From Halobaculum saliterrae (lineage in GTDB: Archaea; Halobacteriota; Halobacteria; Halobacteriales; Haloferacaceae): 64,000 bases of DNA. The position numbers and the translations under genes were made by a program. Shown piece after piece: positions 11,995 to 64,000 of this stretch (the stretch's first letter is position 1; every line of letters starts with the position of its first letter). The notes under the pieces are model-generated. The model did not search any database, was not told where the DNA came from, and saw only the letters and a list, made by a program, of their open reading frames with translations. The stretch lies in NCBI RefSeq assembly GCF_009831625.1, contig NZ_WUUS01000002.1:186001-250000 (forward strand). The letters run 5' to 3'.

Positions 11995-12005
11995 CGAAAA
12001 GCGAG

Positions 12006-17809: not shown

Positions 17810-18022
17810 ATGACTGACTTGCTCGAAATACGAGACGACGGAGAGTTCGTGATTTCTGGAACGGTGAGTCGAGATGAGCTTGAGGCGGAACTGACACCGC
17901 TGAATCCGCGCAGTTTGTTCGATAGACGACTGAAAACTGTTCTGAGGGATATGCTGGATGAGGCGGACGGTGACGAGATCCTCGTCGAGGCGTTAGTCAG
18001 AAACGGCGATACTGAACCGTAG
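17810..18022 (+). CDS. small acidic hypothetical protein
   Basis: 70 residues: MTDLLEIRDDGEFVISGTVS, then DELEAELTPLNPRSLFDRRL, ending with an acidic helix. It lies 83 bases behind the GmrSD-like gene on the same strand and ends nine bases from the convergent DUF499 gene. Composition and position suggest a real small gene, but no motif is recognised. Confidence 0.55.
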   Translation: MTDLLEIRDDGEFVISGTVSRDELEAELTPLNPRSLFDRRLKTVLRDMLDEADGDEILVEALVRNGDTEP

Positions 18023-18031
18023 AAGACGCGG

Positions 18032-21000: not shown

Positions 21001-21247
21001 CGTAGAGAATGTGTGTCCCGCGTGGATCGTCGCCAGTGAGCGAATCACGAAGGATGGCGAGGGCCTCTCGAAGGCCCTGTGTCATCAGCGTCCGCTCGAA
21101 GAAGAGGTCCGCATCAGACTCGAACTCCTCGTCGTCGTCAACGTTGTAGAGTTTTACCTGTCCATCGATCTGCCCTTCTTCTCGAAGCTCACGGCTGAGG
21201 GTCACCGTGTCTTCGAGAGTGTTTGATAAGGATCCCGTCTGTGCCAT
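18032..21247 (-). CDS. DUF499-type large P-loop ATPase (BrxC/PglY-like)
   Basis: 1,071 residues from the ATG at 21247. Walker A is GPYGSGKS (83-90) with HILY before it. Walker B-like FFVDELEDWFDT follows near residue 160. The remainder is a long acidic helical protein ending in repeated beta-rich modules (VEYGDVTFML, TQVSLTLRSEQDY, LKIEISFQK). Large DUF499 ATPases occur with DNA methylases in BREX/Pgl-like and other modification-based defence systems. The start is separated by 145 bases from the divergent SNF2 helicase gene, so one control region could serve both arms. Confidence 0.85.
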   Translation of the reverse strand: MAQTGSLSNTLEDTVTLSRELREEGQIDGQVKLYNVDDDEEFESDADLFFERTLMTQGLREALAILRDSLTGDDPRGTHILYGPYGSGKSHQMVALYHCFDDPAAAGTWANDSVEGFDAALPESATPITVAMQNEQYEYLWEPFFEALDYDPGTFNSGGYPDMQTIQEAVGDDTVAFFVDELEDWFDTLQGDRKSANKAFLQSLLESTALSDLELYTIVSVLREGSEVHDILNREQAVEVNMNNQVDKREVLRHRLIDSVDESAAREIVNGYFDAYDQAEGHVDLPDDLLSEMHDLYPFHPVLLDALETRYYADEGNQNTRGMIYLFSKVLLQMQDQTDLITHGDIDAIEFEDELAKINYERLNAATGDIKSRIDTDEVPHGRRILNTILLYSLKPSEGEGAEVSEIVMGAYQTGDLVSDVVLNLERLHGVAWHLHKLNGKYAIRDRQNPNALIRNAAVDVSETSAKAEIADFITDIFGSNAYPVGFRTNDMRDIPDDRDVKIVVKDSQWSQEEVKKVITNDGRGREWRNTLVFVQPSGDKAIESGTRYIDKARYIEGARQVLADESLDDEIRTSIQSMKEQEENELREELQLLYGEVLDGDNLLDDDEWAKVEPMDLDVFVLVDAELDATNIGNSAAADPFDLQSHVWEIAEDLLDRRGEISVEDIYEQFLRDPEFPIPGSANDVLNATVEALDGKPVLARDSGGFRDDLSGSSLDTVLVQQDDVDVWGVDDVEQELRQRFGSGTTALDIGDFELELVEDGEIWIDGDSHDVVMRAIGRLNREDQYVIVRGNEILDKPQSDATVRDVGSATVIGASSLVDRIEAHIDDDGYANLDTIIGEIRADEAVFLPPDETESVAREAVNEFLVDDYVLEAGGRYLASLGDREPTTVKIVPTVSDRIGDQILSYIEDLDPGDQFTVNKVTDRFDDSVTEYMVRTYLLENIGKDEEPEYVVNTTGSDKASDWVPGYPFRKADTEADTWRFEYNGDDVAAMRSKWRNDHQTGSVEYGDVTFMLPDREGVPGALQGTADVERTQVSLTLRSEQDYTKVQDLFERMPEEASSLKIEISFQK

Positions 21248-21392
21248 CTTGATACTTAAACAAAGTTCAGTGGCACCCAATAAACACTATGGTCCCAATG
21301 AACAGAGCCGGAGGCTCAACAACAGTACTGCGTACCGATCCACGATTGTCGGTCACAAAACGTATTTTACGCACACCTGTTTCTACGAACGT
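21248..21392. promoter_or_regulatory. divergent promoter region of the DUF499 and SNF2 genes
   Basis: 145 bases between two divergent start codons. A rightward TATA-like GTATTTTACG (21362-21371) is about 25-30 bases before the ATG at 21393, giving a leaderless transcript. The leftward side has an AT-rich TACTTAAACAAAG just before the DUF499 ATG. Shared control of the two genes is likely. Confidence 0.5.
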
Positions 21393-23147
21393 ATGAGCGG
21401 GTACGACCTCGTCGATATCGAGGTCACACACGAGTCTGCAGACGATCTCCTGGATTCGCTGTCTGAAGACGGTGCTGAGGGAGACCATCTACAGAGTATC
21501 CAAGCTGTGCGTCTCCAAGCCGGCCAACCGGACTCCGAACTTCGGTCGTTGAAAGAGCTGGACGAAAACTCCGTCAAGCTACTGGAACACCAAGTGGATG
21601 CGGCTTATCGGGCCCTCTTCGAGATGGACGGAAAAGCACTCCTGGCTGACGAAGTCGGCCTCGGGAAGACAATTGAGGTCGGGATGATTCTCAAGGAGAT
21701 GCACTTCCGTGAAACGGACGAGTCCGTCCTCATCCTCACGCCCGCACAACTGGCCAAGCAGTGGCAGGCAGAGCTCCGTGAGAAGTTCGGACTCGACTTC
21801 ATCTGCAACTACGACGACGAATTCGAGGACTTCGACGCCCATGACTACATCATTGCGAGCATCGATACTGCGAAGAGCGAGCGACACCGCCAGACGGTTC
21901 TCGACCGCGATTGGGATGTTCTGGTACTTGATGAGGCACACTACGTCAAGAACGAAGAGACGGACCGCTACGACCTGATTGACCGGCTCGCATACAACTA
22001 CGCGTTCTTCCTGACTGCGACGCCGATTCAGAACGAACTGACTGACCTGTACAACGTCGTCTCGCTACTCCGCCCCGGACTGTTCGGCACACGCGATGTC
22101 TTCCACCAGTACTTCGTGAACAGCAATCAGGAGACGCTCGTCAACCGAGACGAGCTACAGGATCGGCTGAACAAAGTGATGATCCGGAACCGACGGGAAG
22201 ACACGGACATCGACTTCACGGACCGGACTATCGACACACGGACGTTCGAGCCTACCCCAAAGGAACGCGAACTCTACCAAGCAGTCTCTGACTACGTCAA
22301 AGGCGCGTACAGTCAAGACCAGGGACAGAAGCTCGTACTGATGCTCCTTCAGAAGGAGGTCGTCAGCAGCCCGGTCGCGCTTAAGCGGACCATCGAGAAG
22401 CGACTCTACGAACAGTCGGAGCTCACGCACGCGGACGAACTGGAGACCATCTTGGATCTGATCGATGAGATCGATACGGTGACAAAACAGGAGCGGCTCT
22501 TGGATATCGTCGAAGAAGCCCGCGACAACGTCGAGATGGGGAGAGTCATCGTCTTCACTCAATTCCGAGCAACCCAACAGCAGATCCTCGACAGACTCGT
22601 CTCAGAGGGATACACAGTACACGCCTTCCACGGCGGTCACTCCAGCAGTGAGAAAGAACAGATTGTCGAGGATTTCGAAGAAGAGGGTGGAATCCTCGTT
22701 TCAACCGACGCGATGAGCGAGGGGCGAAACTTACAATTTTGCAACATGTTGGTAAATTTGGACTTGCCGTGGAATCCGATGCGTGTCGAACAGCGTATCG
22801 GTCGGATACATCGAATCGGGCAGAAGCGGGACGTCTTCATCTTCAATATGGCGTTGAAAGATACGATCGAGGAGTACGTACTTGAGCGATTGTATCATAA
22901 AATTGATCTATTTCAGCAGAGTGTTGGAGAACTGAGCTCGATCTTGAGTCGCTTGGAGGAATCGGGCACAAGTTTCGAAGACCAAATTTTCGAGCGGCTA
23001 ATGAACGCTGATTCCGAAGTCGAGCTTGAGAACGACTTCGATGCGATGGCTGTTAACCTCCAGGAACAGCGCGAGCTCGCCGACAAACTTGAGGAGTTCA
23101 ATAGCGGCGTGTTCGAAGGGTTTGACCTGGGGGAGAGCGATGACTGA
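21393..23147 (+). CDS. SNF2-family helicase of the defence island
   Basis: 584 residues from the ATG at 21393; an upstream in-frame start at 21207 would overlap the DUF499 gene and is rejected. Motifs in order: DEVGLGKTIE (I), ILTPAQLAKQW (Ia), LDEAHYVKNEE (II), LTATPIQNELTDLYN (III), HAFHGGHSS and STDAMSEGRNLQ (IV-V), QRIGRIHRIGQ (VI). This is the HepA/RapA-like branch of SNF2 ATPases, which move along double-stranded DNA. The same branch supplies the helicase of DISARM class 1 (DrmD). The next gene starts inside its 3' end, so the two proteins are co-translated. Confidence 0.9.
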   Translation: MSGYDLVDIEVTHESADDLLDSLSEDGAEGDHLQSIQAVRLQAGQPDSELRSLKELDENSVKLLEHQVDAAYRALFEMDGKALLADEVGLGKTIEVGMILKEMHFRETDESVLILTPAQLAKQWQAELREKFGLDFICNYDDEFEDFDAHDYIIASIDTAKSERHRQTVLDRDWDVLVLDEAHYVKNEETDRYDLIDRLAYNYAFFLTATPIQNELTDLYNVVSLLRPGLFGTRDVFHQYFVNSNQETLVNRDELQDRLNKVMIRNRREDTDIDFTDRTIDTRTFEPTPKERELYQAVSDYVKGAYSQDQGQKLVLMLLQKEVVSSPVALKRTIEKRLYEQSELTHADELETILDLIDEIDTVTKQERLLDIVEEARDNVEMGRVIVFTQFRATQQQILDRLVSEGYTVHAFHGGHSSSEKEQIVEDFEEEGGILVSTDAMSEGRNLQFCNMLVNLDLPWNPMRVEQRIGRIHRIGQKRDVFIFNMALKDTIEEYVLERLYHKIDLFQQSVGELSSILSRLEESGTSFEDQIFERLMNADSEVELENDFDAMAVNLQEQRELADKLEEFNSGVFEGFDLGESDD

Positions 23148-35381: not shown

Positions 35382-37961
35382 GTGCCACTTCGGGAGGCAA
35401 AATCCATCGACACCCTCGCTGCGGACACACGCGAGGCCAAGCTCACACTCTCTGCGGATCCACCACTCACACTCGCACTGGACCGCCACACCAGTACCCC
35501 ACGCCTCGGCCGCGCCAGTGCAACACCGCGAAGTTACGCCGCAAACGAGTTCGTCCCCAGCGACCGCCGACGGCTGTTTACACACCTTATCAACGACACG
35601 AGCCTCACATGGAAGCAGGCCCACCGGGCGCTCGACCGGTGTCTCCAGTGTTGGGACGCAACGGGGTCACTCGACAGCATCACCGACTATCCAGAGTTCG
35701 ACACGCCGCAATTCCATACCACTCGCGACATCCTCCAAGCGGCCGATTCGAGTTACCACGATCTCGAAGCTACGAAGCTCCCCGACAGCACCGATGTGGC
35801 GGTGATCAACGAGGCGGGACTGAGCCCTCTCGACCGTACTCTCCTCCCCAATTCCTACAAGCAGGTCGACCCCTTCACCGGTGACACGACCTCCCTCCCT
35901 CAGTTTCACGTTTTCCCCTCCACCTCGGCGATCGTCGACGCGCTCATCACGCAACTCGATGCCCACACTGCCGAGGCCGTCGGGATCGTCCTTGACGAGT
36001 CGAGTCTCCTCAGTCCGCTCGTCGAGTCCGCACTCGAGACCGCCGGCATTCCGTATCAAGGTGGCCCAGGATTCATCGACGACTCCGATGTCCGGACCTT
36101 CCTTCGACTTTCCGACGCGGTCTTCACCGGCAGTGATCTGCGCGTTGCCGAACTACGCCCGCTCATCGAACGACTTGGCATCGACCTCGCAAGGACTGCT
36201 GATCACCGTCGTGTCGATCGTGTCGACATCGGCTCTGCCTACGAGCAGTTCGCCGACGCGCTCCACACAGGCACTGTCGACGACGCAATATCGACGTACG
36301 AACTGGCCGCCGAGACCTCACTCACCCACCTTCGCGAGGAGTGTGCCAAGCTCGGTCTCCTCTCGACAGCGTTCACGCCGCAGCGACTCACCCAACTCCG
36401 GTACTATATCGAGTCATTCGACATCCCGGTCGACCAGCCGAACGAAGGAATACTATTGACCGACGGCGCGGCAACCAGCTACGTCGACCGTCCGGTCGTA
36501 TTCTATCTCGGCTTAGGAGACGGGTGGGCACAACAACCCCCAGACAAACCGTGGATCGACCCGGTCGAACACGTCCAGCAAGACCTCGACCGCTTCGAGA
36601 TCCTCCTCCAGAACGGGCAGGAGCGACACTTCCTCGTCCAAGCATCGCAGGCCGACGCAGACACCTCCCCGTGTGTGTACTTCCAAGACCTCGTGGAGCA
36701 CTCCGTCGAGTCGTTCAGTGACCTGCCGCACACGACCCACGGTGCTGACGCGACGCGGGAGAGCGTCGGGACCCCGTTCGTCGCCCCCGACAAACCGGAC
36801 ACAGACCCCGAGCCACCGGAGACGATCAGCCAGTCCACCCTCCAACGCCTCGCCAACTGTCCCCGTGAGGAGTTCTTCCACCGACTGGTCGAGTCACCGA
36901 CGACGATCCCGATGGCTCGCGGCACCGTGATCCACGAGGCCGCAGAGCTGTGTGTCACGCATCCGGATGCGGTTCGCGAGCGGCACACTGAGGTCGTCGA
37001 CGCGATGCTCGACCAGATTCGTGCGTACGCGACGACGGCCCGCGAACGAGTCGAACGAACGCAGTGTGAGATTGCACTCAAGACGATACAGCGATATCTC
37101 GACGCCCGTCCGCCGACCGACACACCGCACGAGACGTACAGCGACCGCTCGCAGTCCAACAACCTCGCCGACCGGCTGGGACTCACTGTCGACTCTCCAC
37201 TCACCGAGCGGTGGTTCCAAGCCCCGGACATCGGACTCCACGGCTTCGTCGACCTGCTCCATTCGGAGACGGCGCTCATCGACTACAAGACCGGCTCTAA
37301 GTCGTCGGCTGGAAAGCTGCGCCAACAGGCGGCACTCGACCCGCTGCATGACGAGCCGAATTTCCAAGCGGCGGCGTATCTCGCCCAACATCGCCGTGAA
37401 ACCCCCGACCAGCCACTGGAGATCCGATTCGTCCACCTTCTCGAACATGACACGCAACTCGCCCGTGGCGACACTGTCCCGCTTGATGAGCTGGTCACCA
37501 CGGTCGAGTACCTGCCCTGTACGTTCGGCGAGTTCGCCGCCCGCCGCGAGGCGTTCGACGCGGTCACCGACTACGCCGACTCCAACGACCGCGTGAAAGC
37601 ACTCGACCCGCTCGGGTACGACGCATATCGCGAGTTCTTCGAGTCACACGACCTTCCACGTGAGGGGGTCGACCCGGAGCGACGGGAGGCCATTATCCAA
37701 TCGTTCATCGAGTACACCAAAACCCGGGTCAAGGACACGAAATACGTCGAACGCGGCTGTCGCTCAGCCATTGAGGATATCGACGGCCTCGTGGGCGAGC
37801 GCTACCTCACGGAGGACCTGGACGCCTTCGAAGCGTTCGTTACCGCCCAACGCGAGCGCCTCGCAGCTTATCGGGAGGAGGGCTTCCCCATCCGCACCAA
37901 CGAAGACGGCCCCAACTGGGATCGCGTCGACGCCCAAGATCTGGTGATCGACGATGTCTGA
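35382..37961 (+). CDS. AddB-like protein with RecB-type nuclease domain
   Basis: 859 residues from a GTG at 35382; a stop codon lies four codons upstream in frame, so little can be missing. The N-terminal 450 residues resemble an inactivated helicase core (VFYLGLGDGWAQQPPD, then HFLVQASQADAD). The C-terminal part has the RecB-family nuclease motifs: MARGTVIHEAAELC, then GFVDLLHSETALIDYKTGS (residues about 620-636). AddB-type subunits pair with AddA helicases to process DNA double-strand ends. The next gene overlaps its end by eight bases. Its start abuts a polB remnant, so its own promoter may have been replaced. Confidence 0.82.
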   Translation: MPLREAKSIDTLAADTREAKLTLSADPPLTLALDRHTSTPRLGRASATPRSYAANEFVPSDRRRLFTHLINDTSLTWKQAHRALDRCLQCWDATGSLDSITDYPEFDTPQFHTTRDILQAADSSYHDLEATKLPDSTDVAVINEAGLSPLDRTLLPNSYKQVDPFTGDTTSLPQFHVFPSTSAIVDALITQLDAHTAEAVGIVLDESSLLSPLVESALETAGIPYQGGPGFIDDSDVRTFLRLSDAVFTGSDLRVAELRPLIERLGIDLARTADHRRVDRVDIGSAYEQFADALHTGTVDDAISTYELAAETSLTHLREECAKLGLLSTAFTPQRLTQLRYYIESFDIPVDQPNEGILLTDGAATSYVDRPVVFYLGLGDGWAQQPPDKPWIDPVEHVQQDLDRFEILLQNGQERHFLVQASQADADTSPCVYFQDLVEHSVESFSDLPHTTHGADATRESVGTPFVAPDKPDTDPEPPETISQSTLQRLANCPREEFFHRLVESPTTIPMARGTVIHEAAELCVTHPDAVRERHTEVVDAMLDQIRAYATTARERVERTQCEIALKTIQRYLDARPPTDTPHETYSDRSQSNNLADRLGLTVDSPLTERWFQAPDIGLHGFVDLLHSETALIDYKTGSKSSAGKLRQQAALDPLHDEPNFQAAAYLAQHRRETPDQPLEIRFVHLLEHDTQLARGDTVPLDELVTTVEYLPCTFGEFAARREAFDAVTDYADSNDRVKALDPLGYDAYREFFESHDLPREGVDPERREAIIQSFIEYTKTRVKDTKYVERGCRSAIEDIDGLVGERYLTEDLDAFEAFVTAQRERLAAYREEGFPIRTNEDGPNWDRVDAQDLVIDDV

Positions 37962-40848
37962 GCCGACTCCGAACGAGAACCAGCAGCGACTCATCGAGTC
38001 TACCGACGGGATCTATCGTGTCGACGCCGGCGCCGGGACCGGCAAGACGTTCGGGATCACCCGGCGGTACGCCCACATCCTCGACTCAACCGACGCGACA
38101 CCTGAGGACATCCTCCTGGTCACGTTCACTCGCAACGCCGCTCGAGAGATGCGCGAGCGTATCGTCCAACAAACGGACTACGACCTCCGGGAACTCCAAG
38201 GCGCGCCCATCAGCACCTTCCACGCCTACTGTTTCCGACTGCTGCGTCGCTACGGGCACACTGTCCCCGAGACGCTGGGCATTGACGACCAGATCCCCGA
38301 CTCAATCGACCTCATCGAGGAGCCAGTTCGCGAACGGCAACTGTTCCAACGGTTCATGTCCACCTTCGCCGACGACCATCCGGAACACGCAGACATGTTG
38401 CGTATCTTCCGTGACCCCGCCACGCTCCACGCGCTCGTCGGCGAGCTCGCTGCAAAAGGCGTTATCCCCACCCGTGACGGCTGGTTCCGGTCGACTGCTG
38501 GGCCACTCCACGGAGACCGCGAGGCGTTTTTCGACACCGTCGCCGACGCAAACGCCCCAGGCGAGGGGGCCTCCGGTCCGACCAACAGCGACGCACGAGG
38601 GTCAGTCAGCGGGTGGGACGCGAGTGAGTACGCCCCGGACGCTCCCTCGAAAGCCGAGGTCCACGACGATCCACAGGTCGATCTCGGTGTCATCGAACGC
38701 GCCTACGACGAGGATCGGACAGCGCTGGTGGCGTTCGTCCACGACGTCTACCACGAATATCTCGCCTACGCGCTCCGGAACGACTACCTCACGCAGGGGT
38801 TGATGCTGGCGCTGGCGTTCGTCATGCTGTGTGACCGGCCGGTAGTTCGCGAGCAGGTCGCCCACGAGTACGTGATGATTGACGAGTTTCAGGACACGAA
38901 CGAGCTCCAGTTCAAGATCGCGCTGCTGCTTGCGGACACGAACAACCTCTGTGTTGTCGGGGACTGGAAACAGTCGATCTACGGCTTCCAACACACCAGC
39001 GTCGAGAACATCACCGCGTTCGACGACCGACTCGAGCGGTTCACCCGCGAGTTGAACGCCGACCGAACCCGCATCGACTACCCCGTCGAGTCGGTCACCA
39101 CCATTCCGCTGTACGAGAACTATCGCTCCTCGGCCTCGATCCTTGAGTTCGCGGAGCAGAGTCTCTCGATCCCGGCGACGTACAGCGAAGACGTGGATGA
39201 TCCGCTGGCGGGCGAGCGCTCGCTCGCGGCGACGAATCACGTCGACAACGCACGGATCGACGCGTACCACGCATCGAACGAACACGAACTTCTCCTCGAT
39301 CGGATCCAGCTGGTCGTCGGCAACGACGACTACGCAGTTGAGGTCACCGACGACCCGCAACCGGACCCCGATGCCACCGCTGCACAGCAGGAAGCAGCCG
39401 AGCGCGAGCGACTGGGTGCGCCGTCGTACGGAGACATCGCTGTGTTCACCCGAACACGCGCGTTCGCTCGGGAGTTCCTCGCCGTCGCCGACGAGTACGG
39501 CGTTCCGGTCGCCTACGAAGGCGGCGTTGAGTTGTTCGATACCCCAGAGGCGAAGCTCGCACTCGCGTGGTTGCGGATCGCCGAATCAAACGCCCGTCGT
39601 GGGTGGGCCGTCGTCCTTGAGCGCGCCGGCTACTCGTTCGATCGCACGGAGACGATTCTGGATACCGAAGCGTATCCCGACGCGATGGTGCAGTTCCGCG
39701 AGGAACTTGCAGCGATCGACACGCTCGGGGGCTTCCTTCGACGCGTCTTCGACCGCTACGGACGCACCAGCGCGTACGCTGATGCGCTCGTCGATCACCT
39801 TACGAGCCTCTACGAGACCAGCACGCTCACGCGGGGCGAGGCGATCCAGTACATCGAAGCCAACCTCACTGCGGGGACCACCGTCGAGATCGAGACAAGT
39901 CCGGGCGAGGACGCCGTCACCCTGCAGACCATCCACGGTGCAAAGGGGCTCGAGTACCCGATCGTCATGCTCGCAAACCTCAACGACCGCGCGTTCCCAC
40001 ATTACGGCCAGCCACCCGGCTGCCCGATCGTCTACGATGACGAGTTGGGACTTCGCCAAACGCGGGCATACAGCGACGCGGGCGCCCATCCGCACGTCTA
40101 CCCGCATTGGCCGACGAAGCTATTGCAGTCGATACAACCGTCGACGTACGATGAAGAGCGGCGCCTGCTGTACGTCGCGATGACGCGTGCGAAACGACAC
40201 CTCCTGTTCACCGCTGGGGACGACCCAAGTCGCTTCATGGACGGGCTCTCAATCGACGCGACGACAGTCGAGCCGGCACCCGAACACGTCACGGTCGATC
40301 GAGACGCTGCCACGCCGTTCGAGACGACGATCCCCGACAGTAGCACCGTCCCGCGACGCCTCAGTGTCCACGATATCATGGACGACAGCGTCTACGAAGA
40401 GCGCGACGGCGGTCGTGGGACGGACTTCGGAACCGATGTACACGACTTCGCCGAGGCGTACGCGCTCGACGAACCCGTCGAACCGAGCAACGACGACGAG
40501 CGCGCCGTCGCGACGCTCATCGACGATCTCGATGGGGAACTCATTCCGGAAGAGCCTGCGTTGCTACCGCTGCCCGGCGACCCACAGGTGACGCTCGCGG
40601 GGATCATCGACCTCGTCCACGTGACGGCCGACAGCGTCGAGATCATCGATTACAAGACCGACCCCGACCGGCTGGCCCACGACGAGTACCGAACGCAGCT
40701 GAGTGTGTACTACCACGTGCTCGCAAGTGTGTACCCCGACCGGTCGATTCAGGCGACTGTCTTCTACACACAGACCGCTACGTCGGTTACTGTCGATCCG
40801 GTTTCGATCGACGAACTCGATCGGCTATCGAGAGGGCGACACCATTGA
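37954..40848 (+). CDS. AddA/UvrD-like helicase-nuclease
   Basis: 964 residues. Superfamily 1 motifs in order: VDAGAGTGKTFGITRRYA (I), LLVTFTRNAAREMR (Ia), YVMIDEFQDTNELQF (II), VVGDWKQSIYGFQ (III), TLQTIHGAKGLEYPIVML (V), RRLLYVAMTRAKRHLL (VI). The last 120 residues carry a RecB-type nuclease (DFGTDVHDFAEAY, then VTADSVEIIDYKTDP). This is the helicase-nuclease arm of an AddAB-like machine for end resection or for degrading foreign linear DNA. Translation is coupled to the AddB-like gene. The last 20 residues lie close to a strong hairpin. Confidence 0.88.
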   Translation: MSEPTPNENQQRLIESTDGIYRVDAGAGTGKTFGITRRYAHILDSTDATPEDILLVTFTRNAAREMRERIVQQTDYDLRELQGAPISTFHAYCFRLLRRYGHTVPETLGIDDQIPDSIDLIEEPVRERQLFQRFMSTFADDHPEHADMLRIFRDPATLHALVGELAAKGVIPTRDGWFRSTAGPLHGDREAFFDTVADANAPGEGASGPTNSDARGSVSGWDASEYAPDAPSKAEVHDDPQVDLGVIERAYDEDRTALVAFVHDVYHEYLAYALRNDYLTQGLMLALAFVMLCDRPVVREQVAHEYVMIDEFQDTNELQFKIALLLADTNNLCVVGDWKQSIYGFQHTSVENITAFDDRLERFTRELNADRTRIDYPVESVTTIPLYENYRSSASILEFAEQSLSIPATYSEDVDDPLAGERSLAATNHVDNARIDAYHASNEHELLLDRIQLVVGNDDYAVEVTDDPQPDPDATAAQQEAAERERLGAPSYGDIAVFTRTRAFAREFLAVADEYGVPVAYEGGVELFDTPEAKLALAWLRIAESNARRGWAVVLERAGYSFDRTETILDTEAYPDAMVQFREELAAIDTLGGFLRRVFDRYGRTSAYADALVDHLTSLYETSTLTRGEAIQYIEANLTAGTTVEIETSPGEDAVTLQTIHGAKGLEYPIVMLANLNDRAFPHYGQPPGCPIVYDDELGLRQTRAYSDAGAHPHVYPHWPTKLLQSIQPSTYDEERRLLYVAMTRAKRHLLFTAGDDPSRFMDGLSIDATTVEPAPEHVTVDRDAATPFETTIPDSSTVPRRLSVHDIMDDSVYEERDGGRGTDFGTDVHDFAEAYALDEPVEPSNDDERAVATLIDDLDGELIPEEPALLPLPGDPQVTLAGIIDLVHVTADSVEIIDYKTDPDRLAHDEYRTQLSVYYHVLASVYPDRSIQATVFYTQTATSVTVDPVSIDELDRLSRGRHH

Positions 40849-51992: not shown

Positions 51993-54200
51993 CTACCCAT
52001 ACTCTCCCAGCGATGGCTCCACAACCCCTGAGACCACCCGCTGAATCTGTTCGCGATCCCACCCGAGCGGCGAGACCACACTCTCGGCAGCCCGTATCGC
52101 CTCCTGACGATACCACTCGACATCGTACCGTCCTAACGATTCATACCCCAACCGAACTCGCCCCAACCCAGTCGCCGCATCGTCTACCACAAGGTACTCC
52201 ACTCGTTGCCCGGGCTCGAGTGCGCAGTCTTTCCACTTCGCGCGCTTCAGCGCCGCCACGGTCACCGTCTCGTATCGATACTGTTCGGCGCGTTTCGACA
52301 CCCGTTGCGTCACGAGCAACTCGCTTGGGTCCACCTCACCCTCCTCCAACCGACTGAGCCACCGCCGTAACTCCCCGACGACGGCCTCCACATCGTGGGT
52401 TCGGTCCAACGTCCGGATCAACGCCGCCTGCAACCGCGCGATCCACGCCGGGGTGTCGTTCTGACGGCATTCGATCCCGCGCGTCTTCACCGCCTCACCC
52501 ACACCCTCGTCAGGCAACTCCACTCCACGACGCCGCCCGAAGTACCGCGTCAGCGCACCCCCATCACCACCACGCCGTGGACAGAACGCGACCCACTCGA
52601 AGGCGCCCTCGTACTCCAACTCGATACCCACCTCTGAGCTCACTTCCTGAGCAATCACATCCAATTCTCGCCGCTCTTTTTCGTCCACATCCGGCGCGGG
52701 TGCCACCCAGATCGAATCGACAATCCCGTGCAGCACGCGCCACCCGCCGGCCTCAAGCGCTTCCTTCGCATCCAGCAGAATCTCCCGGGCAAACGCGTTG
52801 ATTGCCTCGTGGCACTCGATGCGGCCGTACTTCGCGTTGGAGAAGCCCTGATACCCGAAACAGGACACCAAAATCCACTTGATCGCCGCCGAGCGCGACT
52901 CCAACGCTGCGATCTCCTCTGGATCATCCGACTCACGAATCCGCTGCTTAATCGCGTCCCGCCCATCAATAAGCGGTCCTAACACAGCGGGGAGGTACCC
53001 ATCCCGCTCACAGATACTATACCCCACGTTCGGAACCGCGTCGTTGTCACAACACCCACACCGCACCGTCTCTGGTGAGATGTTATACTCCCGAATGATG
53101 TTCGGATACAGCGACGAGAAATCGAGTTCGTGGACGTCCTCATGCACCCCCACTTCGGGCGCGAGCGTCGTCCCGCCCCGGTCGGCGGTATCGAGCGTCG
53201 CCGCCGAGCGGAAGAACTCTGGGCGCCATGCCTGCCACGGCACCAACACGCCGCGAGCCCGTGCCTCCCGGATCTGCATCGCCGTCAACACCCGCCCGAT
53301 CGACGCCCACCCGAGCTCCTGCAACGGCAGTCCAGCCCGCTCAACGAGATCGAGACAGCCCTCGAGACCTGCCTCGTGCACAAAGAACGAGTTCGACCGA
53401 TCGAGCAGCACTCTCCCCGGCACTGAATACCGCGCCGGCGAGTGACCGACGTTCCCGTAGCTCGTGTACGTCGAGGCCGACGCCAACTGTGTATAGCCCG
53501 ACTCTCGCCCAAGCTCGAACGGCCGCAGACCGTACTCTTTCGCTGCCTCGAACAACAGCGGGACGACCTCGGCGGTATCGACGATCAGCACGTCTGGGTC
53601 GACGCTCGCGACGCGCTCCGCGACGGCCGCAACCACTTCACGCGGCGTCGATCCCACCGACTCGCCGTCGACGGTGAGCTGAGACAGCGCCTCCACCCCG
53701 GACTCGTGGGCCGGAAACCCCACCTCAAGCGTTCGAAGTGCCCGCACATCCGTATCGGGCGCTGGATCCGTCCCGGTTTCAAGCGTGTAGCGGAACTGCC
53801 GCGTCACATCGACGTTGTAGCAGGTGTAGGCGTCCGCGGCACCGAACTGCTGGACCCGCCGCGCGACCGAGCGGAGGTCGTCGATCTCACGACACTCGAT
53901 ACGGAGGACCGGTCGGGCATCAGCGCGGAACGTCTGGCGCCACACGTCCACTGAGAGCGACTTGACGGCTGCCTGCCCCCTGAGGAACGAGCGCAACTCC
54001 TGAAGCTCCTCAGTGAGCGCTCCACGCGCCGGCAACTGCACTCGCGGCGTCTGCCCGCCGTGCTCGCCGTACAACTCCGTGACAGGCGCCCCGACGTACA
54101 TCGTGGGTCGGTAGTCGTCGACGCGGGTGCGTTCGACACCCGAGGCCGTGAGGCCCCACTCGACGACCGTGGTGCCATCGTAGTCGATCGCGAGCACCAT
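51993..54200 (-). CDS. polB: family B DNA polymerase, haloarchaeal plasmid type (intact)
   Basis: 735 residues from the ATG at 54200. Polymerase motif A is ELDFSSLYPNIIREYNISPE. Motif B lies around VSCFGYQGFSNAKYGRIECH. Motif C is HGIVDSIWVAP, in which the usual YGDTDS is reduced to GIVDS. CGCCDNDAVPNVG may bind zinc. The 3'-5' exonuclease acids are not obvious, so proofreading may be lost. It probably replicates the resident plasmid or element. The gene lies with a RecA-like gene and other plasmid genes to the right. Three remnants of its 3' end occur at 28.5, 35.2 and 41.8 kb. Confidence 0.9.
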   Translation of the reverse strand: MVLAIDYDGTTVVEWGLTASGVERTRVDDYRPTMYVGAPVTELYGEHGGQTPRVQLPARGALTEELQELRSFLRGQAAVKSLSVDVWRQTFRADARPVLRIECREIDDLRSVARRVQQFGAADAYTCYNVDVTRQFRYTLETGTDPAPDTDVRALRTLEVGFPAHESGVEALSQLTVDGESVGSTPREVVAAVAERVASVDPDVLIVDTAEVVPLLFEAAKEYGLRPFELGRESGYTQLASASTYTSYGNVGHSPARYSVPGRVLLDRSNSFFVHEAGLEGCLDLVERAGLPLQELGWASIGRVLTAMQIREARARGVLVPWQAWRPEFFRSAATLDTADRGGTTLAPEVGVHEDVHELDFSSLYPNIIREYNISPETVRCGCCDNDAVPNVGYSICERDGYLPAVLGPLIDGRDAIKQRIRESDDPEEIAALESRSAAIKWILVSCFGYQGFSNAKYGRIECHEAINAFAREILLDAKEALEAGGWRVLHGIVDSIWVAPAPDVDEKERRELDVIAQEVSSEVGIELEYEGAFEWVAFCPRRGGDGGALTRYFGRRRGVELPDEGVGEAVKTRGIECRQNDTPAWIARLQAALIRTLDRTHDVEAVVGELRRWLSRLEEGEVDPSELLVTQRVSKRAEQYRYETVTVAALKRAKWKDCALEPGQRVEYLVVDDAATGLGRVRLGYESLGRYDVEWYRQEAIRAAESVVSPLGWDREQIQRVVSGVVEPSLGEYG

Positions 54201-57369: not shown

Positions 57370-57415
57370 GCAACGGCGGGGGAACCGAATGCGGCGCGGT
57401 CGCAGTCACGGTTCG

Positions 57416-57527
57416 AAGCCGGGGGAGGTGCGGTCGACCCGCCCCGCCGACGCAAGCACAGAAGGCGAACTTCGTGAGCCGAGGCGCGCAGCGAGGCGCG
57501 GCGGGTCGACCGTGCCGACTCCCGGCT
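57416..57527. repeat. long inverted repeat forming a large stem-loop
   Basis: GGTCGACCCGCC (57432-57443) is a perfect inverted match to GGCGGGTCGACC (57500-57511). Outside it, AGCCGGGGGAG (57416-57426) matches CTCCCGGCT (57519-57527). The loop is about 56 bases and very GC-rich. Together with the 37-nt hairpin it suggests a structured RNA or an origin-associated structure. No good gene overlaps it. Confidence 0.55.
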
Positions 57528-57721
57528 CAGGCTGGGGCACCACGATCGACTCAGCGGTCGCTGTCGCGGTCGTGTTCCTGTATCAAGTATGTGGTAGGTC
57601 GGTGTTCGTTGGAGGTGGTGTCCCACCGGTTCGATCTGCGTCTGCCCCTATGGGGCTCCTGCCGACTCGCCCCCCACTGGTCACTCCTCACTGTCCGTCC
57701 ATCCCCATGGGGCTCTCATGG

Positions 57722-57955
57722 TCACTCGTCGATCACACGGACAGACTTCTCCCGTGCGTAGCCCCGGTCGATGGGGTGGTCGATAGCCGCGCCGATCGGC
57801 TCCACTTGCGCTGGGGTGACGACCTCGTCGACGCGGCGTGTCGCGGCGCCGTCGGTGCGGCCCGATCGCCACGGGTTGTCCCCCCGGCTCGAGTCGTCGC
57901 GGTCGACGTCGACGGTGGTGACTCCTGGGCCGACTGCCCACGGGATGTCGGACAA
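57722..57955 (-). CDS. possible 77-residue hypothetical protein
   Basis: The frame starts at a TTG directly after a stop codon and reads MSDIPWAVGPGVTTVDVDRD, with an acidic, charged composition like haloarchaeal proteins, ending EKSVRVIDE. The lack of an ATG or GTG and of a clear promoter makes it doubtful. It may be the end of a lost gene. The opposing rightward frame at 57338-57994 is less likely. Confidence 0.3.
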   Translation of the reverse strand: MSDIPWAVGPGVTTVDVDRDDSSRGDNPWRSGRTDGAATRRVDEVVTPAQVEPIGAAIDHPIDRGYAREKSVRVIDE

Positions 57956-58369
57956 CTACTCGGCTTGCGAGTCGGTGATGTATCGAGATACTGATAGAGC
58001 TTCCAGCGTGTGCGGTCCTCTCTGACTGGCGGTCAGGAAAGAGCCGGTGGGCTCGTCTGCCCTTCCCCTTCCACCTAGCGGCGATTGCCTCACGGTCCGG
58101 TTGCATCACTGCCGATCCTCCACCACTTCCAGTATCCCTCACCCTCCATCTTCAGTCGCAATCGGCGACTGCCGATCCGCTGTGGCGGGGCCACTCCCCT
58201 GCTAGTCGATCGGCCAGTCGTCCATCTTCGGCTGCCGTCATAGCCAACCCACACCCGCTCATTCCTATATCAGCTCCCTGAGAGTTCGAAGGCCCCACTG
58301 GCCGCTTGGCGGTGTCTTCGATTCTACTTGGCCTGTCGGCCTTGGAGACAGGAGCTGTGCTCCGTAACG

Positions 58370-58890
58370 TCTTATAGGGGGTTATTCAATACGGACTTTA
58401 TGTACCCCTCCCCTCGGCGCAAATCTTGAAATAAACTATCCCTTAACAGATAGCCATTGTTCGTCGGTTTTCGCATGATAGAAGCCCTCTAAGAGTAGAA
58501 TTTGAGAGTTAATAAGCAATCTCGAAATCTAGCTATATCGTCTGACGTGAACCCCTTGATAGCACCCCTTAACAGCACCCTCTAACACGACTACGTACAG
58601 TAATTCTAGGTCCCATTTGAGAATCAGTATAGCAATTAATAATACATTTTGCCTCGATGGCAGTGTTAAGGGGTCCAGAATATCATCTTAACCCGCCGCA
58701 CTATGGTTTTTTGCAGGTTTTCGGAACCTCGGCCACCCTTTAACAGCACCCTTACCACCAGTACAGGGCACCCCTTAACACTCATACGAGAATTGGTAGT
58801 TCAATGTGGACTGAGAGGATGCTATTCTCAACCGGCGGCGATACTGGGTTTGAGATAACATTCCAATATGTGGGTTAACACGCTGGGTCA
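58370..58890. repeat. iteron-like CCCCTTAACA repeats in an AT-rich gene-free zone (candidate replication origin)
   Basis: The word CCCCTTAACA or close variants recurs at 58439-58448 (as TCCCTTAACA inside CTATC...GATAG), 58565-58574, 58735-58744 (CCCTTTAACA) and 58771-58780, in opposite orientation at 58664-58673 (TGTTAAGGGG), and more weakly at 58577-58586 (CCCTCTAACA) and 58872-58881 (GGGTTAACAC). Several are preceded by GCA or CA and followed by GCACCC. The zone has no gene, is AT-rich and lies between plasmid replication genes and a large plasmid ATPase. This is the classic look of a replication origin or a multi-site regulator region; no Rep gene is adjacent. Confidence 0.6.
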
Positions 58891-59496
58891 GAGAGTGATG
58901 TCGAGTCATTCCCTTGTCCCCAACACGTAGGAGAGTGAGAGCAACTTGGATCTCGATGGGCCTGACCCCCTATCCACTAGCGGGGCAGTATGAGCCGGAC
59001 TTGGAGGTGAACAACGGGCGGGCTGAGTAGACTCAAAGCCCCGATCCACGCTGGTTAGTAATATCACATATCACCTTTCAGAAATAGATTCACAGCCCAG
59101 CATTCAGTCTGTGGGACCAACATCGTCGACTCTACCCGGGTCATATCTCTACAGCGAAGTGGTCATGCGTAATGAGAAATCTCGAGTATGTTTTACTGTG
59201 TCATATTCAAAAGATGTATATTATATTTCGAGTAAAATTATGATGATTAATATTCCAATATCTCTGGTCGTTCGAGTCTCACAAACGACCCAAATTGAAA
59301 AGGATCCAACCTGTCGACGATGAATCGTATGGCGAGAGTGACCGCTGACTTCGCTTGAGTCGCTGCATGATTATCGAGTGTAGATCGGACAGAGTGAATC
59401 AGTATCAGTCTCTCTCGATAACAGCGTTTGCTCCACTACACATTGAGCCGAACTACTATACCAGAATCCAGATAGGTTTCTGATTTTCTGACCGAT
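58891..59496. other. AT-rich gene-free stretch beside the iteron-like zone
   Basis: No convincing gene on either strand. The part around 59160-59300 is especially AT-rich (for example GTATATTATATTTCGAGTAA) and could be a DNA-unwinding element if the repeats to the left are an origin. A 70-residue frame at 59111-59323 has an untypical Ser/Ile/Lys composition for this genome and is rejected. Confidence 0.4.
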
Positions 59497-62400
59497 TTAG
59501 ATTTCTAGCTGGTCGTCTGAGTCAGGGTGCATCTCGGCTAACTCTTCACCAGTCTGTGCAAGAGTTACCCCGATTAGACGAGTGGCAGCCGTTCCATTCA
59601 CCCGTTGGACTTCCTTCTTACAGCCGAGGTAATCGACCATGTCTCCGATGTTCTGCACGTTTCGCGGCTCCACGTCGTTCTTCTCACAGAACATCTCGTA
59701 GGCATGGTACGCAGTCCTCGATGGGACTTGTAGGTAGTCGACATTTTGTTCGGGAGCAACCTCCGCACTATCTGTAATGTGATAGTCTGCGAACCGCTCC
59801 ATCGACTCCTCCTGAGTAAGGTCATCGACGGTCAGTTGGACGTCTTCATCCTCACCGGGCGAGTTATCGTGTGCTCCGACAGAACTTGACGCATCAATTA
59901 CGGTATCCACATCGAGTGGTGCGACTGCTTCCTCGGTCTCTTCCTGCTTCGCACCTGCGGCAGGTTGTTGATTGTCGCCATCATCTGACACGGTGGCCGG
60001 CGCTTCGGTGGACGAGTCTGTGGCGTCTCCGCTTGCAGACACTCCACTGGCTGACGCTTGCCCAGTAGTTGCCTCGTCGGCAGTCGGGGCGGTCGCTTCT
60101 CCAGCCTGTTCCTGCTGGCCGGTGGTGCTGTCCTCGTGTGTAGTGGTGTCTGGTCCACCACCAGATCCGCCATCTGAGTCATCGTTGCCGTCCCCCATCT
60201 CTTCGAGATAGAGGTCCCAATCGATCGACGACGTCGACGAGTCGTGCGGGTCGTTCAAGGAGACGAACCCTTCTGCCTCGAGGAGCACGTTGGCTCGGAT
60301 AGCTGTCTCGATGTGTTCCTCGGCAACATCCTGCGGGATATCGTGAGCGTTTTCGACGAGTCCGGGGAGCTCGTGGCGGGGGAAGATTTCCTCCTGATCG
60401 ACGCGGGCGAAGTTCCAGACGTGGACCCATTCTTCGGGCGGGTCCCGCGCTGGGAGCCGGTACGACACGATCGTCTTGCCACCGGGGCCTTCATCCTCGA
60501 CTTCTTCGAGTGTGCCCCTGGAGAGTGACGCTTTGACCGCTGCTCGGACGCGGGGTCTGACAGCGTCGTCGCCAGTGAAGGGGCCACGGTTCAGCGCGTT
60601 CGCGGCAAAGCCTGTACTAGTGATCGTCTCGCCGGGCGAGATGTTATTCGCCTCCCACACGGCACGCCACGCCTCACGCTGGACGTACTCGTCGGTGTTG
60701 TTACGGAGGACCAGCGACACACGGTCTCCGCGCGGTGGGGCAAGGAAGAATCCGATGTCGGTGTAGATCAAGTGACCCGCGAGAACAGCATCCTGTATGG
60801 CCTCCTCGCGGTTGTTGGTCATGGCGTGGGCACCCTTCATCGCGGTTTTGAGCGTGCTGGCGTCCATGGGAGCGTCAAGGTCGACACCCTCGCCGTGACG
60901 CTTCCAGACCTGTTCCCAGAAGAGACGAGTCAGTGGTTCTTTCCCACCGTAATCGACGCTGGCGGTGTGGTTGCGTTCGATCGACGGAAGACTGGCGTCT
61001 TCATCACGCATTTTCTCTGCGGTGATGAACTTGCGAGACACCGTGTCGTAGAGTTGCTGGTGGTGACTGCTGGCTATCTGGCCGTTGCTGCTGGATGACT
61101 CCCCGAAGCCCCTGAGCAAGGCGGTCTCGAACGTCTGCCCGAAGGATTGCTCCCAGTAGTCCTCGTCGATGAGGGGCTTCGTTTCTTCGCCGTCGTAGAC
61201 ACGCGGCATCGCGTCGACGGGCTTCTCGATCTGTTCGGGGTCGGTCGGCATGATGACGATCTCCCAGTCGTCTTCGGTGGGCAGGTCGTCGAACTCGTAC
61301 TCGGGGAGGAACGGCTTGCGGACGCGCTGCCACTCTTCTTCCAATTCCTCAAGCGAGTCGTAGAGGAGTTCGCGGTTGTCGTGGCTGTAGACCTCCCACT
61401 CGTCCTCGTAGGTGTCGTAGCGACACCAGGAGTCGACGGTATTGACTGATGGATCATCGAGTTTGCCGGCTCCCATGCGACCACGCTCGGCGGATTCCGG
61501 TCCACTACCGTCGTAGAGCCGTAGTTGGCTCCCGTCCCACTCCCACACGGTCTGGTTCCCCTTGCGGATGAGAGCGAACTTGTCGGCCTCGTCTTCGTCG
61601 GAGAAGTCGAGGAATTCGGTGCGGTTGTAGAGGATCAGGCTTTCGTGAACATTGCCCTCGTTATCTTCCCAGACGTTCTCACGGCTGGCGAGCGGCGGAT
61701 CGGTCAGATACCCGTGGAGTGTACTTGCGTCGTGCTCCCGCTTGCGGTTGTTCACGCGGCCGTCCTGCGTGAGGAAGAACACTTTCTTGCCCTGATTCAC
61801 TCCGCGTTGGAGGTTATGCAGCGGACCCGCAGGCTTCGTTAGCGATGCCTCCGCCTCGATGGTGATGTCCTTGCTGTCTCCGAGGTCGTACGCCAATTCG
61901 TGCTCTTCTTCAAGCCGCTCGATGGACTGCTTCAGCGCACGCGGCGAGGACTCGTCCAGTTCACCGGGCAGCTCACCCTCGGCGTCACTGATATCGTCTT
62001 TCTTGGACTGGGCGAGGATCGAGACTTGGAAGCCGGCCCGGGAGAACCAATCGAACCCGTGGGAGAGTATCGTCCGGTGGACGTCCGTCATCTCAAATGA
62101 GCCTTCGTCGGCTGCAAGGACGAACGCCATTCCCTCCTCGGTGATGGTCACAGCACCCTCGGTGTCAGCGATCAGGTGTTCGTCCTCGCCTTCCGTCACG
62201 TCGGTGTAGGCGATGGTGCCGGGGGGAGTCTCCTTCTCGAGTAGTTCGTCCTTCGGAACGGAGACGCCGTCGTCCGGCTCTTCTCCTTGGACATCCTCGC
62301 TGATCTGGACGTAGCGGTTGAAGTGGTCGGGGTTGATTTTCAGACCGTTCGGGTAGTCGTCGATGGAGCGGCCGGTACGTTCCTCGAACACTTCCGCGAC

Positions 62401-64000
62401 CCGGCGGAGGGCGACGGCCTCAGCTCCGCGTTCCAACTGCACTTCCCGGATCGCTTGGAGGAAGTGGCGTTGGGTTGCTTCGTCGTTCCCGAGGTTGTGG
62501 ATGAGCATCGCCGTCTCGTTGATGTTGGCCTCCAGCGGCGGGACGCCGTACTCGTCCAACGAGTTCACCAGCTTGGCTTTCGCCTCGTCACGACTCCGTT
62601 CGGGTGGGTAGTCCGCGAACGTGTTGACGGGTATCGGATCCGAGAGGTACTCCTCGTGTTCTCCTTGCAGGAGGATGCGGAGGTACATCACGAACCGCGG
62701 GATGTCCTCGATATCGGGGCCGTCGACCTGCTCACCGAGTCGTTCGGCGAGCAGGCGTGCGTCTTCCGGGAGGCCGATCCCGAAGGTGCCCATTGTCCGG
62801 CTGTTAGCGAACATCTGGTCGCGGGTCTCCTCGGTGATCTGACCGGGATTCTGGTTCGCCAGCCCAACACCCATCTTCTTGGAGCGGGCCTTCGACAGCA
62901 TGGCCTCGACGTCCATCTCCTCGCTCTCGACCCAATCGAACTCGTCGATGAACGTGAAGTAGGGCTCGCGAAGCTCCTCTTCCTCGCGGCGGGATTGGAT
63001 TGCCGACCAAATCCGGCGCATCACCGCGGTAGAGACGACCCGCTTCAGGTCTTCACTCTCGATGGGGATCTTCACGAGGATGATCTTGCCTTCCTCAACC
63101 GATTCCGCGAGGTCAACCGTCCCCTCGCGGTGGGCAACGATGCCGCGGGCCAGCGGGTCCTCAACCCACGACTGGATACGCCGAACGACGGCGTCCACTT
63201 CGGCGTCATCCATCTCCGCGATCTTCTCGGTGTAGGAGTGGATGTTCATCATCGCCTCCTTGTTGTCCTCGTCGAGGCCCTCCTCGTCCATGAGGCGGCG
63301 GCCCTCCCGCTTGATCATGTCCGCGAACGCCCGCCGGGACTGCTTAGACATGATGACGTGGTACATGTCGGTCAGCGTGAAGGGCTTCGGCGACCGGATC
63401 ATCGCCCGAGCGATGTTGGTGGTGATCCCCTGCATCTTCGGGCCCCAGTAGTCGCCGCCTTTCAGGATCGCCACGAGGTCGTCGACGATGGACGATACCT
63501 CCTTGTTGTAGGCGACTGTGCCCGGCTCCTTCGTCGCCTCGAGGAAGTTGATCCCGACGACCTGATCGAAGTCTTCGGACCCGGGCTCGATCCAGATGAC
63601 GTCGTCCATCCGGTTCTCGGGAATCTCCGTGATCAACTCGTCGACGGTGTCCCCTTTCGGGTCGATGTAACAGAAGCCGTAGCCCTTCCGGGCGATCTGG
63701 TTGAGGATGTTCTTCTGAGCGGTGGACTTCCCGTTCCCCGTCATGCCGAACATCGTCATGTGGCGGAACCAGGAGCTCTTCTCGATCCCGATCTCGTGGA
63801 AGCCGACGCGGTTGTCCTTCAGGTAGCCCAACCAGATTGGGGAGTCCGGGTGTTCCTCGTGGACGTCGATGAGTTCGTTCTTCACGTCCTGGCCCATGTA
63901 GACGTTCCCGTCTTCGTCGTGGACCTTCACCTCGTAGGCGCGATCCTCGTTCGTGTGAGGGTCGAAGCACCACTCCCGTTCCACGCTATCAGGCGTGATC
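59497..64000 (-). CDS. very large HerA/VirD4-like ATPase (5' end outside window)
   Basis: At least 1,500 residues; the frame is open to the right edge, with a GTG at 63984 as one possible start. Counting from that GTG, Walker A is GMTGNGKS (80-87), YIDPKGDTVDELI follows (typical of TraG/VirD4/HerA), and Walker B is YFTFIDEFDWVESEE. ANQNPGQITEETRDQMFANS is the expected sensor region. Several helical, winged-helix-like regions follow. Near residues 1280-1390 lies a Thr/Ser/Ala/Glu-rich linker. The last 100 residues (AYHAYEMFCEKNDVEPRNVQ, then RLIGVTLAQ) resemble the winged helix ending phage/plasmid primases. DNA transfer or plasmid partition is the likely job; the pump-like core fits conjugation. 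Confidence 0.82.
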   Translation of the reverse strand, partial: ITPDSVEREWCFDPHTNEDRAYEVKVHDEDGNVYMGQDVKNELIDVHEEHPDSPIWLGYLKDNRVGFHEIGIEKSSWFRHMTMFGMTGNGKSTAQKNILNQIARKGYGFCYIDPKGDTVDELITEIPENRMDDVIWIEPGSEDFDQVVGINFLEATKEPGTVAYNKEVSSIVDDLVAILKGGDYWGPKMQGITTNIARAMIRSPKPFTLTDMYHVIMSKQSRRAFADMIKREGRRLMDEEGLDEDNKEAMMNIHSYTEKIAEMDDAEVDAVVRRIQSWVEDPLARGIVAHREGTVDLAESVEEGKIILVKIPIESEDLKRVVSTAVMRRIWSAIQSRREEEELREPYFTFIDEFDWVESEEMDVEAMLSKARSKKMGVGLANQNPGQITEETRDQMFANSRTMGTFGIGLPEDARLLAERLGEQVDGPDIEDIPRFVMYLRILLQGEHEEYLSDPIPVNTFADYPPERSRDEAKAKLVNSLDEYGVPPLEANINETAMLIHNLGNDEATQRHFLQAIREVQLERGAEAVALRRVAEVFEERTGRSIDDYPNGLKINPDHFNRYVQISEDVQGEEPDDGVSVPKDELLEKETPPGTIAYTDVTEGEDEHLIADTEGAVTITEEGMAFVLAADEGSFEMTDVHRTILSHGFDWFSRAGFQVSILAQSKKDDISDAEGELPGELDESSPRALKQSIERLEEEHELAYDLGDSKDITIEAEASLTKPAGPLHNLQRGVNQGKKVFFLTQDGRVNNRKREHDASTLHGYLTDPPLASRENVWEDNEGNVHESLILYNRTEFLDFSDEDEADKFALIRKGNQTVWEWDGSQLRLYDGSGPESAERGRMGAGKLDDPSVNTVDSWCRYDTYEDEWEVYSHDNRELLYDSLEELEEEWQRVRKPFLPEYEFDDLPTEDDWEIVIMPTDPEQIEKPVDAMPRVYDGEETKPLIDEDYWEQSFGQTFETALLRGFGESSSSNGQIASSHHQQLYDTVSRKFITAEKMRDEDASLPSIERNHTASVDYGGKEPLTRLFWEQVWKRHGEGVDLDAPMDASTLKTAMKGAHAMTNNREEAIQDAVLAGHLIYTDIGFFLAPPRGDRVSLVLRNNTDEYVQREAWRAVWEANNISPGETITSTGFAANALNRGPFTGDDAVRPRVRAAVKASLSRGTLEEVEDEGPGGKTIVSYRLPARDPPEEWVHVWNFARVDQEEIFPRHELPGLVENAHDIPQDVAEEHIETAIRANVLLEAEGFVSLNDPHDSSTSSIDWDLYLEEMGDGNDDSDGGSGGGPDTTTHEDSTTGQQEQAGEATAPTADEATTGQASASGVSASGDATDSSTEAPATVSDDGDNQQPAAGAKQEETEEAVAPLDVDTVIDASSSVGAHDNSPGEDEDVQLTVDDLTQEESMERFADYHITDSAEVAPEQNVDYLQVPSRTAYHAYEMFCEKNDVEPRNVQNIGDMVDYLGCKKEVQRVNGTAATRLIGVTLAQTGEELAEMHPDSDDQLEI

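Follow-up and report, generated by a model that had tools for sequence, protein, structure and literature searches.

A plasmid iteron array in Halobaculum saliterrae that is probably recognized by the winged-helix tail of a neighbouring giant DNA motor protein

The origin of phage P4 contains repeats in both orientations, and TraB of Streptomyces has a winged-helix tail and a site, clt, that lies near its gene. To our knowledge, the movement of large haloarchaeal plasmids, and initiators of their replication other than Orc1/Cdc6, have been little studied. Passages of one published account describe the P4 alpha protein (of the TOPRIM type) as binding the origin repeats through a winged helix, place the origin of pRN1 3' of its replication gene, and state that among pRN1 relatives the flanks are conserved and the sequence of the site diverges (PMC4234260). 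Parts of another report that a TraB hexamer assembles at clt via 8-bp repeats and transfers the double-stranded plasmid (PMC4170104). By analogy, P4 alpha and pRN1 appear to be the closest models for the locus described here, and TraB/clt the closest for transfer. No description of the array site or of the giant protein was found in the open-licence PMC literature, subscription papers being outside the scope of the search.

The stretch of DNA analysed, referred to as the window, comprises 64,000 nucleotides (bases 186001–250000) of the 454,224-bp contig C2 of Halobaculum saliterrae, which may be an incomplete replicon, because no overlap of its ends was found. An initial annotation had seen, in a gene-free zone, at least five close copies of an iteron in both orientations and two more degenerate ones. 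This description holds: CCCCTTAACA has five matches at one mismatch or fewer in the window, one of them inverted and all inside 342 bp (58439–58780), to which three copies with two mismatches each can be added, and no gene was found in 58370–59496, the nearest ORFs of at least 80 aa ending at 58142 and 59497. An AT-rich block had also been placed next to the iterons; a stretch at about 58608–58652 does lie close, but the richest one (about 59190–59262, read by eye) is some 400 bp away. As for the flanking genes, the family B polymerase gene and the large ATPase gene from 59497 are present, but no RecA-like gene was seen beside the site. In H. rubrum, too, a type B polymerase gene lies near the site (L020:2868–5075). 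The features are as follows.

51993–54200, minus strand: family B DNA polymerase gene
57390–58436, no strand assigned: conserved outer block of about 1 kb with no convincing gene, 88–89% identical in H. rubrum and H. gomorrense
58439–58448, plus strand: iteron with one mismatch, TCCCTTAACA (word match to CCCCTTAACA)
58552–58561, plus strand: degenerate iteron with two mismatches, CCCCTTGATA (word match)
58565–58574, plus strand: exact iteron, part of the 13-bp direct repeat GCACCCCTTAACA (word match)
58578–58587, plus strand: degenerate iteron with two mismatches, CCCTCTAACA (word match)
58608–58652, no strand assigned: AT-rich stretch that follows the first group of iterons and precedes the inverted one (read by eye)
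58664–58673, minus strand: inverted iteron, exact (word match)
58698–58715, plus strand: core element GCACTATGGTTTTTTGCA, which corresponds to GCCGTATGGTTATTTTCA with four mismatches
58736–58745, plus strand: iteron with one mismatch, CCCTTTAACA (word match)
58748–58757, plus strand: degenerate iteron with two mismatches (word match)
58771–58780, plus strand: exact iteron (word match)
59497–64000, minus strand: 3' part of the giant gene, which continues beyond the window to C2:251592
59497–59847, minus strand: predicted C-terminal winged-helix domain, proposed to bind the iterons (116-aa segment)
63634–63795, minus strand: ATPase P-loop region matching TrwB_AAD_bind, HerA/DUF87 and CedD

On the whole of C2, five of the eight matches to CCCCTTAACA at one mismatch or fewer, and all three exact copies, fall within the array. 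Five matches anywhere in the window were reached in 2 of 100 whole-window shuffles, and when any 10-mer could be chosen freely the window site tied with its shuffles (five copies against a maximum of five in 20 shuffles). The window array alone is hence only moderately unlikely when the word is free to choose, and for this reason the case for it rests on the comparison with relatives.

The array lies about 720–1,060 bp 3' of the giant gene, whose product is a protein of 2,031 aa from the likely ATG, in an intact frame. Its ATPase scores just over the Pfam cut-offs for TrwB_AAD_bind and HerA/DUF87 and far below the NCBIfam cut-off for CedD; these are its best models, and no FtsK match is listed for it. 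A TOPRIM part is missing from the window protein, and the rest of the genome yielded no homologue of it. By Pfam scan, no SF3 helicase was detected in the proteins examined.

In its predicted fold, the C-terminal tail is similar to RFX, to Orc1/Cdc6 and to the origin-binding domain of phage P4. AlphaFold2 models the 116-aa segment as a winged helix (mean pLDDT 84.1), with a wing at residues 77–92 and a recognition helix, by our own assignment, at residues 64–74. With VIA-align 2, the model matched the DNA-binding domains of RFX5 (Z 8.7) and RFX1 (Z 8.1), the C-terminus of the PrimPol of African swine fever virus (ASFV; Z 6.9) and origin-bound Cdc6/Orc1 (Z 4.9), and the P4 origin-binding domain (1ka8) gave Z 6.2 over 82 residues at 3.0 Å, with RFX and others scoring as high or higher; values of 6–9 on a small winged helix may reflect the common fold only. 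Foldseek likewise placed RFX at E 0.012–0.017, with no match at E 0.001 or better. Sequence searches of the PDB with the winged helix returned weak matches to RFX5 (E 0.0012) and to the DNA primase 7ola (E 0.026), while those with the primase and with the ATPase returned nothing useful. Pox_D5 matches the window tail below the Pfam cut-off (E 0.0056) and a Salinigranum relative above it.

A DNA search with the window locus found three Halobaculum plasmids that share a short conserved stretch, and Halobaculum plasmids are its closest relatives. Eight members were compared: the window, H. rubrum, H. litoreum, H. magnesiiphilum, H. marinum, H. gomorrense, Haloferax elongans and Hfx. gibbonsii pHG3. 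In all eight plasmids or contigs the layout is much alike, consisting of direct iterons, an inverted iteron, a conserved core (CCGTMTGGTTATTTTC) and again direct iterons, and each of the eight sites is located 3' of a gene for a protein that ends in the shared winged-helix domain of about 100 residues. The core differs from GCCGTATGGTTATTTTCA by 0–4 mismatches, the window having four. Every part of the layout is found at one mismatch in the window, H. litoreum, H. marinum and H. gomorrense; the inverted copy before the core is also present in the latter three and in Hfx. elongans and pHG3. For H. rubrum and H. magnesiiphilum, CCCCTGTCCG finds direct copies only and the inverted pre-core copy appears in another word register, and for Hfx. 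elongans and pHG3 no direct pre-core copy passed, degenerate ones being visible.

Seven different words occur across the eight sites: CCCCTTAACA in the window, CCCCTGTCCG in both H. rubrum and H. magnesiiphilum, CCCCTGCCCA in H. litoreum, CCCCTGCACA in H. marinum (iterons at 206274–206459), CCCCTGCAAC in H. gomorrense, CCCCGCACAG in Hfx. elongans and CCTTGCACAC in pHG3. Each has three to nine copies at one mismatch or fewer in its own 1.2-kb site, a count reached in 0 of 200 shuffles, which is a flattered figure as the words were picked from the same sites; with the word free to choose, the best one beat all 20 shuffles in six of seven sites, the window tying and pHG3 being left out. In cross-counts with one mismatch allowed, certain words also occur at other sites, as does that of H. 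marinum in H. litoreum, Hfx. elongans and pHG3.

The tail and the array are constant partners, and the protein outside the tail varies, with a VirD4/HerA-type ATPase, a TOPRIM primase or both. The ATPase, TOPRIM part and tail occur together in H. magnesiiphilum, H. marinum and Hfx. elongans. The window protein has ATPase and tail without TOPRIM, and the proteins of H. rubrum and pHG3 have TOPRIM and tail without ATPase, so that five of the eight carry a TOPRIM-type primase on the tail-bearing chain. In H. litoreum and H. gomorrense only a TOPRIM stump and the tail are left, the ATPase and the catalytic part of the primase both being absent. The H. rubrum protein matches DNA-primase families (PHROG 849, E 4.6e-12), and an ATPase remnant of 64 aa is found upstream of its gene. 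A structure prediction for the TOPRIM segment was set aside (mean pLDDT 51.8). No match was found for the TOPRIM protein in phages or for the tail domain in viral contigs, and a scan of viral contigs with the core pattern gave nine hits.

Each related plasmid appears to use its own form of the repeat, matched by a change in the protein tail. For this comparison, the domain was split ahead of the recognition helix into an N half (residues 8–56) and a recognition half (residues 57–96), and identities were compared by Fisher tests, which treat residues as independent. Between the window and H. gomorrense, whose words differ, 44/49 residues are identical in the N half and 23/40 in the recognition half (p 0.0005), and the same is seen for Hfx. 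elongans and pHG3, whose words also differ (46/49 and 23/41; p 0.00003). H. rubrum and H. magnesiiphilum, which share a word, are alike in both halves (47/49 and 38/40; p 1.0). In two close pairs, then, word and recognition half have both changed, and in the third both are conserved. Part of the excess in the recognition half is background, because in distant pairs (28 pairs compared in all) this half is generally less conserved than the N half. H. rubrum and H. magnesiiphilum also look as if tail and site had been exchanged as one cassette: identity is 81–99% over the final ~400 nt of the gene and most of the site, and mostly 57–77% over the next ~1.4 kb of the gene, apart from two 100-column blocks at 87% and 85%.

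Tail and array thus very likely belong together, and the array is probably recognized by the tail of the neighbouring giant DNA motor protein. The initial annotation had suspected an initiator other than Orc1/Cdc6, as the repeat did not look like the usual origin box; the word indeed differs from the repeats at the plasmid's own Orc1/Cdc6 locus, and the likely binder would be the winged-helix domain encoded next door. Its further proposal that the array is the origin of the plasmid is unsupported. An Orc1/Cdc6 locus with its own repeats elsewhere on the replicon, one half of what that annotation had named as speaking against its origin, is present on C2: the gene (C2:411312–412580, or L013:11312–12580) has about 20 ACACCACCGTGTCCGCTGTT-like repeats on both flanks, some in a 34-bp tandem array, and includes the only Orc1/Cdc6 match over the family cut-off on the contig (C2:411459–412553), about 167 kb from the array. 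Since all eight array plasmids or contigs carry Orc1/Cdc6, none of them needs the array site to replicate. GC skew was uninformative for C2 and the H. rubrum, H. marinum and H. litoreum replicons, its excursions of a few hundred bases resembling a random walk.

On balance, we favour a secondary, plasmid-specific and P4-like iteron origin or loading site that would act beside the Orc1/Cdc6 origin. The C-terminal winged-helix domain would bind the iterons that flank the core and thereby position the VirD4/HerA-type motor, together with the TOPRIM primase where there is one, on DNA that would open between the two iteron groups, and would thus act much as the P4 alpha protein does at its iteron origin; we infer binding, melting and the replication outcome alike. 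Because the primase part has been lost from the window protein, initiation on this plasmid would need another primase, or loading alone would remain. In favour of an origin, all eight members keep the array beside this C-terminal domain, whatever the make-up of the remainder of the protein; against it stand Orc1/Cdc6 in all eight, the absent TOPRIM part in the window, the lack of an SF3 helicase match and the distant relatives linked to type IV secretion.

The likeness to P4 alpha lies in the repeats in both orientations, which the window site has as a P4-type target does, and in the TOPRIM primase on the chain of five of the eight members, and it may extend to the origin-binding fold, given the predicted C-terminal winged helix. 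In contrast to P4 alpha, a VirD4/HerA-type ATPase is found in four of the eight instead of an SF3 helicase, the window protein lacks a primase and the replicon also has Orc1/Cdc6. We do not claim membership of the P4 type, because the window protein is without a primase and no SF3 helicase was found. With crenarchaeal pRN1 and its ORF904 protein, as far as the passages cited above describe them, the locus shares a site 3' of a gene for a large protein ending in a winged helix. The pRN1 system differs in its 100-nt stem-loop, AEP PrimPol and SF3 helicase, where here iterons and TOPRIM or VirD4-type modules are found.

The main rival is a transfer site, a reading that we regard as possible and hold only tentatively: the array would be a clt- or oriT-like loading site where the tail of a VirD4/HerA-type translocase engages the plasmid, as Streptomyces TraB does at clt, with the primase acting once the DNA has been transferred. 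Models of coupling proteins match the ATPase, and TraB, a hexamer that recognizes 8-bp repeats at clt and moves double-stranded plasmid according to the parts of the study cited (PMC4170104), offers a precedent. Shared with TraB/clt are a DNA-pumping ATPase paired with short plasmid repeats and no VirB4 match on C2; the tail, the repeats and the change of tail and word together may likewise be TraB/clt-like, provided that the tail binds the repeats. In contrast to TraB, the motor matches VirD4/HerA/CedD models and relatives carry primase modules.

Transfer is also what type IV secretion ATPases among the distant relatives of the tail point to. The tail profile matched 27 of 392 genomes of the order, and apart from the Halobaculum-type members, 24 longer loci were examined, in which the tail relatives sit on such ATPases. 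A gene like the carriers of the NrS-1 PrimPol HBD (PF22763) begins 335–404 bp past the ATPase gene in 19 of the 24, a partial PrimPol-like match lies about 1.7–1.8 kb on in three and none was found in two; a VirB4 match falls within the stretch examined in 16, and 17 of the 19 gaps between ATPase and PrimPol genes (not those of L066 and L067) hold a repeat cluster that at most 2 of 60 shuffles reach, all of these counts being non-independent, as many of the 24 loci are closely related. The named plasmids of Halomontanus and Salinigranum likewise have a repeat cluster in the gap (0 of 60 shuffles each). In L092:7748–13688 and L091:10205–14909, a type IV secretion-like ATPase with a D5-like tail is followed by a repeat-bearing gap of about 340–350 bp, and the genes after these gaps match PF22763 at E 5.8e-31 and 4.3e-32.

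These haloarchaeal type IV secretion loci, with VirB4, a VirD4-like ATPase and PrimPol, resemble our locus in that the ATPase has the same C-terminal domain, mostly with repeats 3' of its gene. They differ from it in the position of the repeats, which lie about 30–260 bp past the gene there and about 720–1,060 bp past it here, and the window contig has a core element and lacks matches to VirB4 and, in the vicinity of the site, to PrimPol. VirB4 was found in this genome on C1, C3, C6, C12, C13 and C16, and neither on C2 nor on the H. rubrum, H. litoreum, H. magnesiiphilum, H. marinum and pHG3 replicons or in the H. gomorrense genome, which argues against transfer; seven of the eight replicons or contigs give no VirB4 match, and the Hfx. 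elongans contig has one such match plus a second ATPase. A translocase would also be hard to reconcile with H. rubrum and pHG3, which have primase and winged helix without the ATPase and yet keep the array, and with H. litoreum and H. gomorrense, which keep it without either the ATPase or the catalytic primase part.

That the DNA-binding tail and the array alone are constant in all eight, with the enzymes coming and going, would also suit a partition or incompatibility site, at which the domain and its iterons would keep plasmid copies separate or joined and would initiate no DNA synthesis, and plasmid-specific words are what incompatibility would select. We consider this unlikely: separate ParA genes are annotated on the H. 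rubrum and pHG3 plasmids, and a primase or DNA motor on the same chain, or an adjoining PrimPol gene as in the relatives, would be unexpected. Similarly improbable is a relic, that is, a once-active site decaying here on a plasmid maintained by its Orc1/Cdc6 origin. Within the set of eight, the window iterons (three exact, two with one mismatch and three with two) and the core with its four mismatches rank among the more degenerate, the TOPRIM part is missing, and the ATPase remnant of H. rubrum could be read in the same way; however, the 2,031-aa frame is intact, and word and recognition half appear to have changed together relative to H. gomorrense. Autoregulation is disfavoured by the position of the array about 0.7–1.1 kb 3' of the giant gene, away from its promoter.

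Like this site, the Orc1/Cdc6 origins of haloarchaeal replicons consist of inverted repeats arrayed about AT-rich DNA. The word here is another one, the Orc gene is about 167 kb away and the proposed binder is not Orc. Unusual Orc1/Cdc6 boxes used by the plasmid's Orc protein are rejected as a highly implausible reading, since on the four fully read replicons (C2, H. rubrum, H. litoreum and H. marinum) different repeat words surround the Orc genes, and clustering of the iteron word is confined to the array site, CCCCTTAACA being absent from the Orc locus of C2.

More speculatively, and in our view rather doubtfully, one domain–iteron pair might both start DNA synthesis and feed the motor, which would give replication and cell-to-cell transfer from one site without a classical relaxase, with the co-switching of word and recognition half keeping co-resident plasmids from interfering. 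In each case, a domain of 116 residues and a 10-bp word form a testable pair, with natural swaps between relatives. Should the pair start replication, it would represent an iteron origin of a type other than Orc1/Cdc6, one served by a fused DNA motor. Should it start transfer, the site would be a candidate for the element that acts in cis in the transfer of haloarchaeal plasmids, and the place to look would be the wider family that has VirB4 and PrimPol neighbours.

Small haloarchaeal plasmids (10.8–18 kb) that encode relatives of the TOPRIM module neither support nor refute the origin reading: no comparable iterons were found in L086 or L087, and a tandem repeat with 24-bp spacing in L088 is unconnected with its TOPRIM-relative gene. 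The largest genes of the 10.8- and 14-kb plasmids (L086:3486–7226 and L087:4076–9370) match the TOPRIM primase module, which is followed, as read by eye, by a helicase-like part, and they may encode the replication proteins of those plasmids.

The conserved outer block on the far side of the array might encode a non-coding RNA transcribed leftward. H. litoreum and H. magnesiiphilum retain the two ends of the block only. A promoter-like GTACATAAAG was read by eye on the minus strand at its inner end (about 58402–58411), 52 of 270 pairs of a consensus fold are changed on both sides among five sequences, and no match was found in Rfam. At the distal end (57395–57535) lies a strong palindrome with folding z-scores of −3.0 (minus strand) and −4.5 (plus strand); parts of this palindrome-rich segment recur at scattered places in 90 of 170 genomes of the family, so that the block may equally well be a dispersed repeat as a structured RNA.

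Elsewhere in the window, adjoining PD-(D/E)XK nuclease and UvrD helicase genes (35382–40848) form an AddAB-like pair on the plasmid, and 6426–23147, with matches to the McrBC, DUF1156/N6-N4 methylase, DUF499 and SNF2 helicase families, is probably a restriction or defence island.
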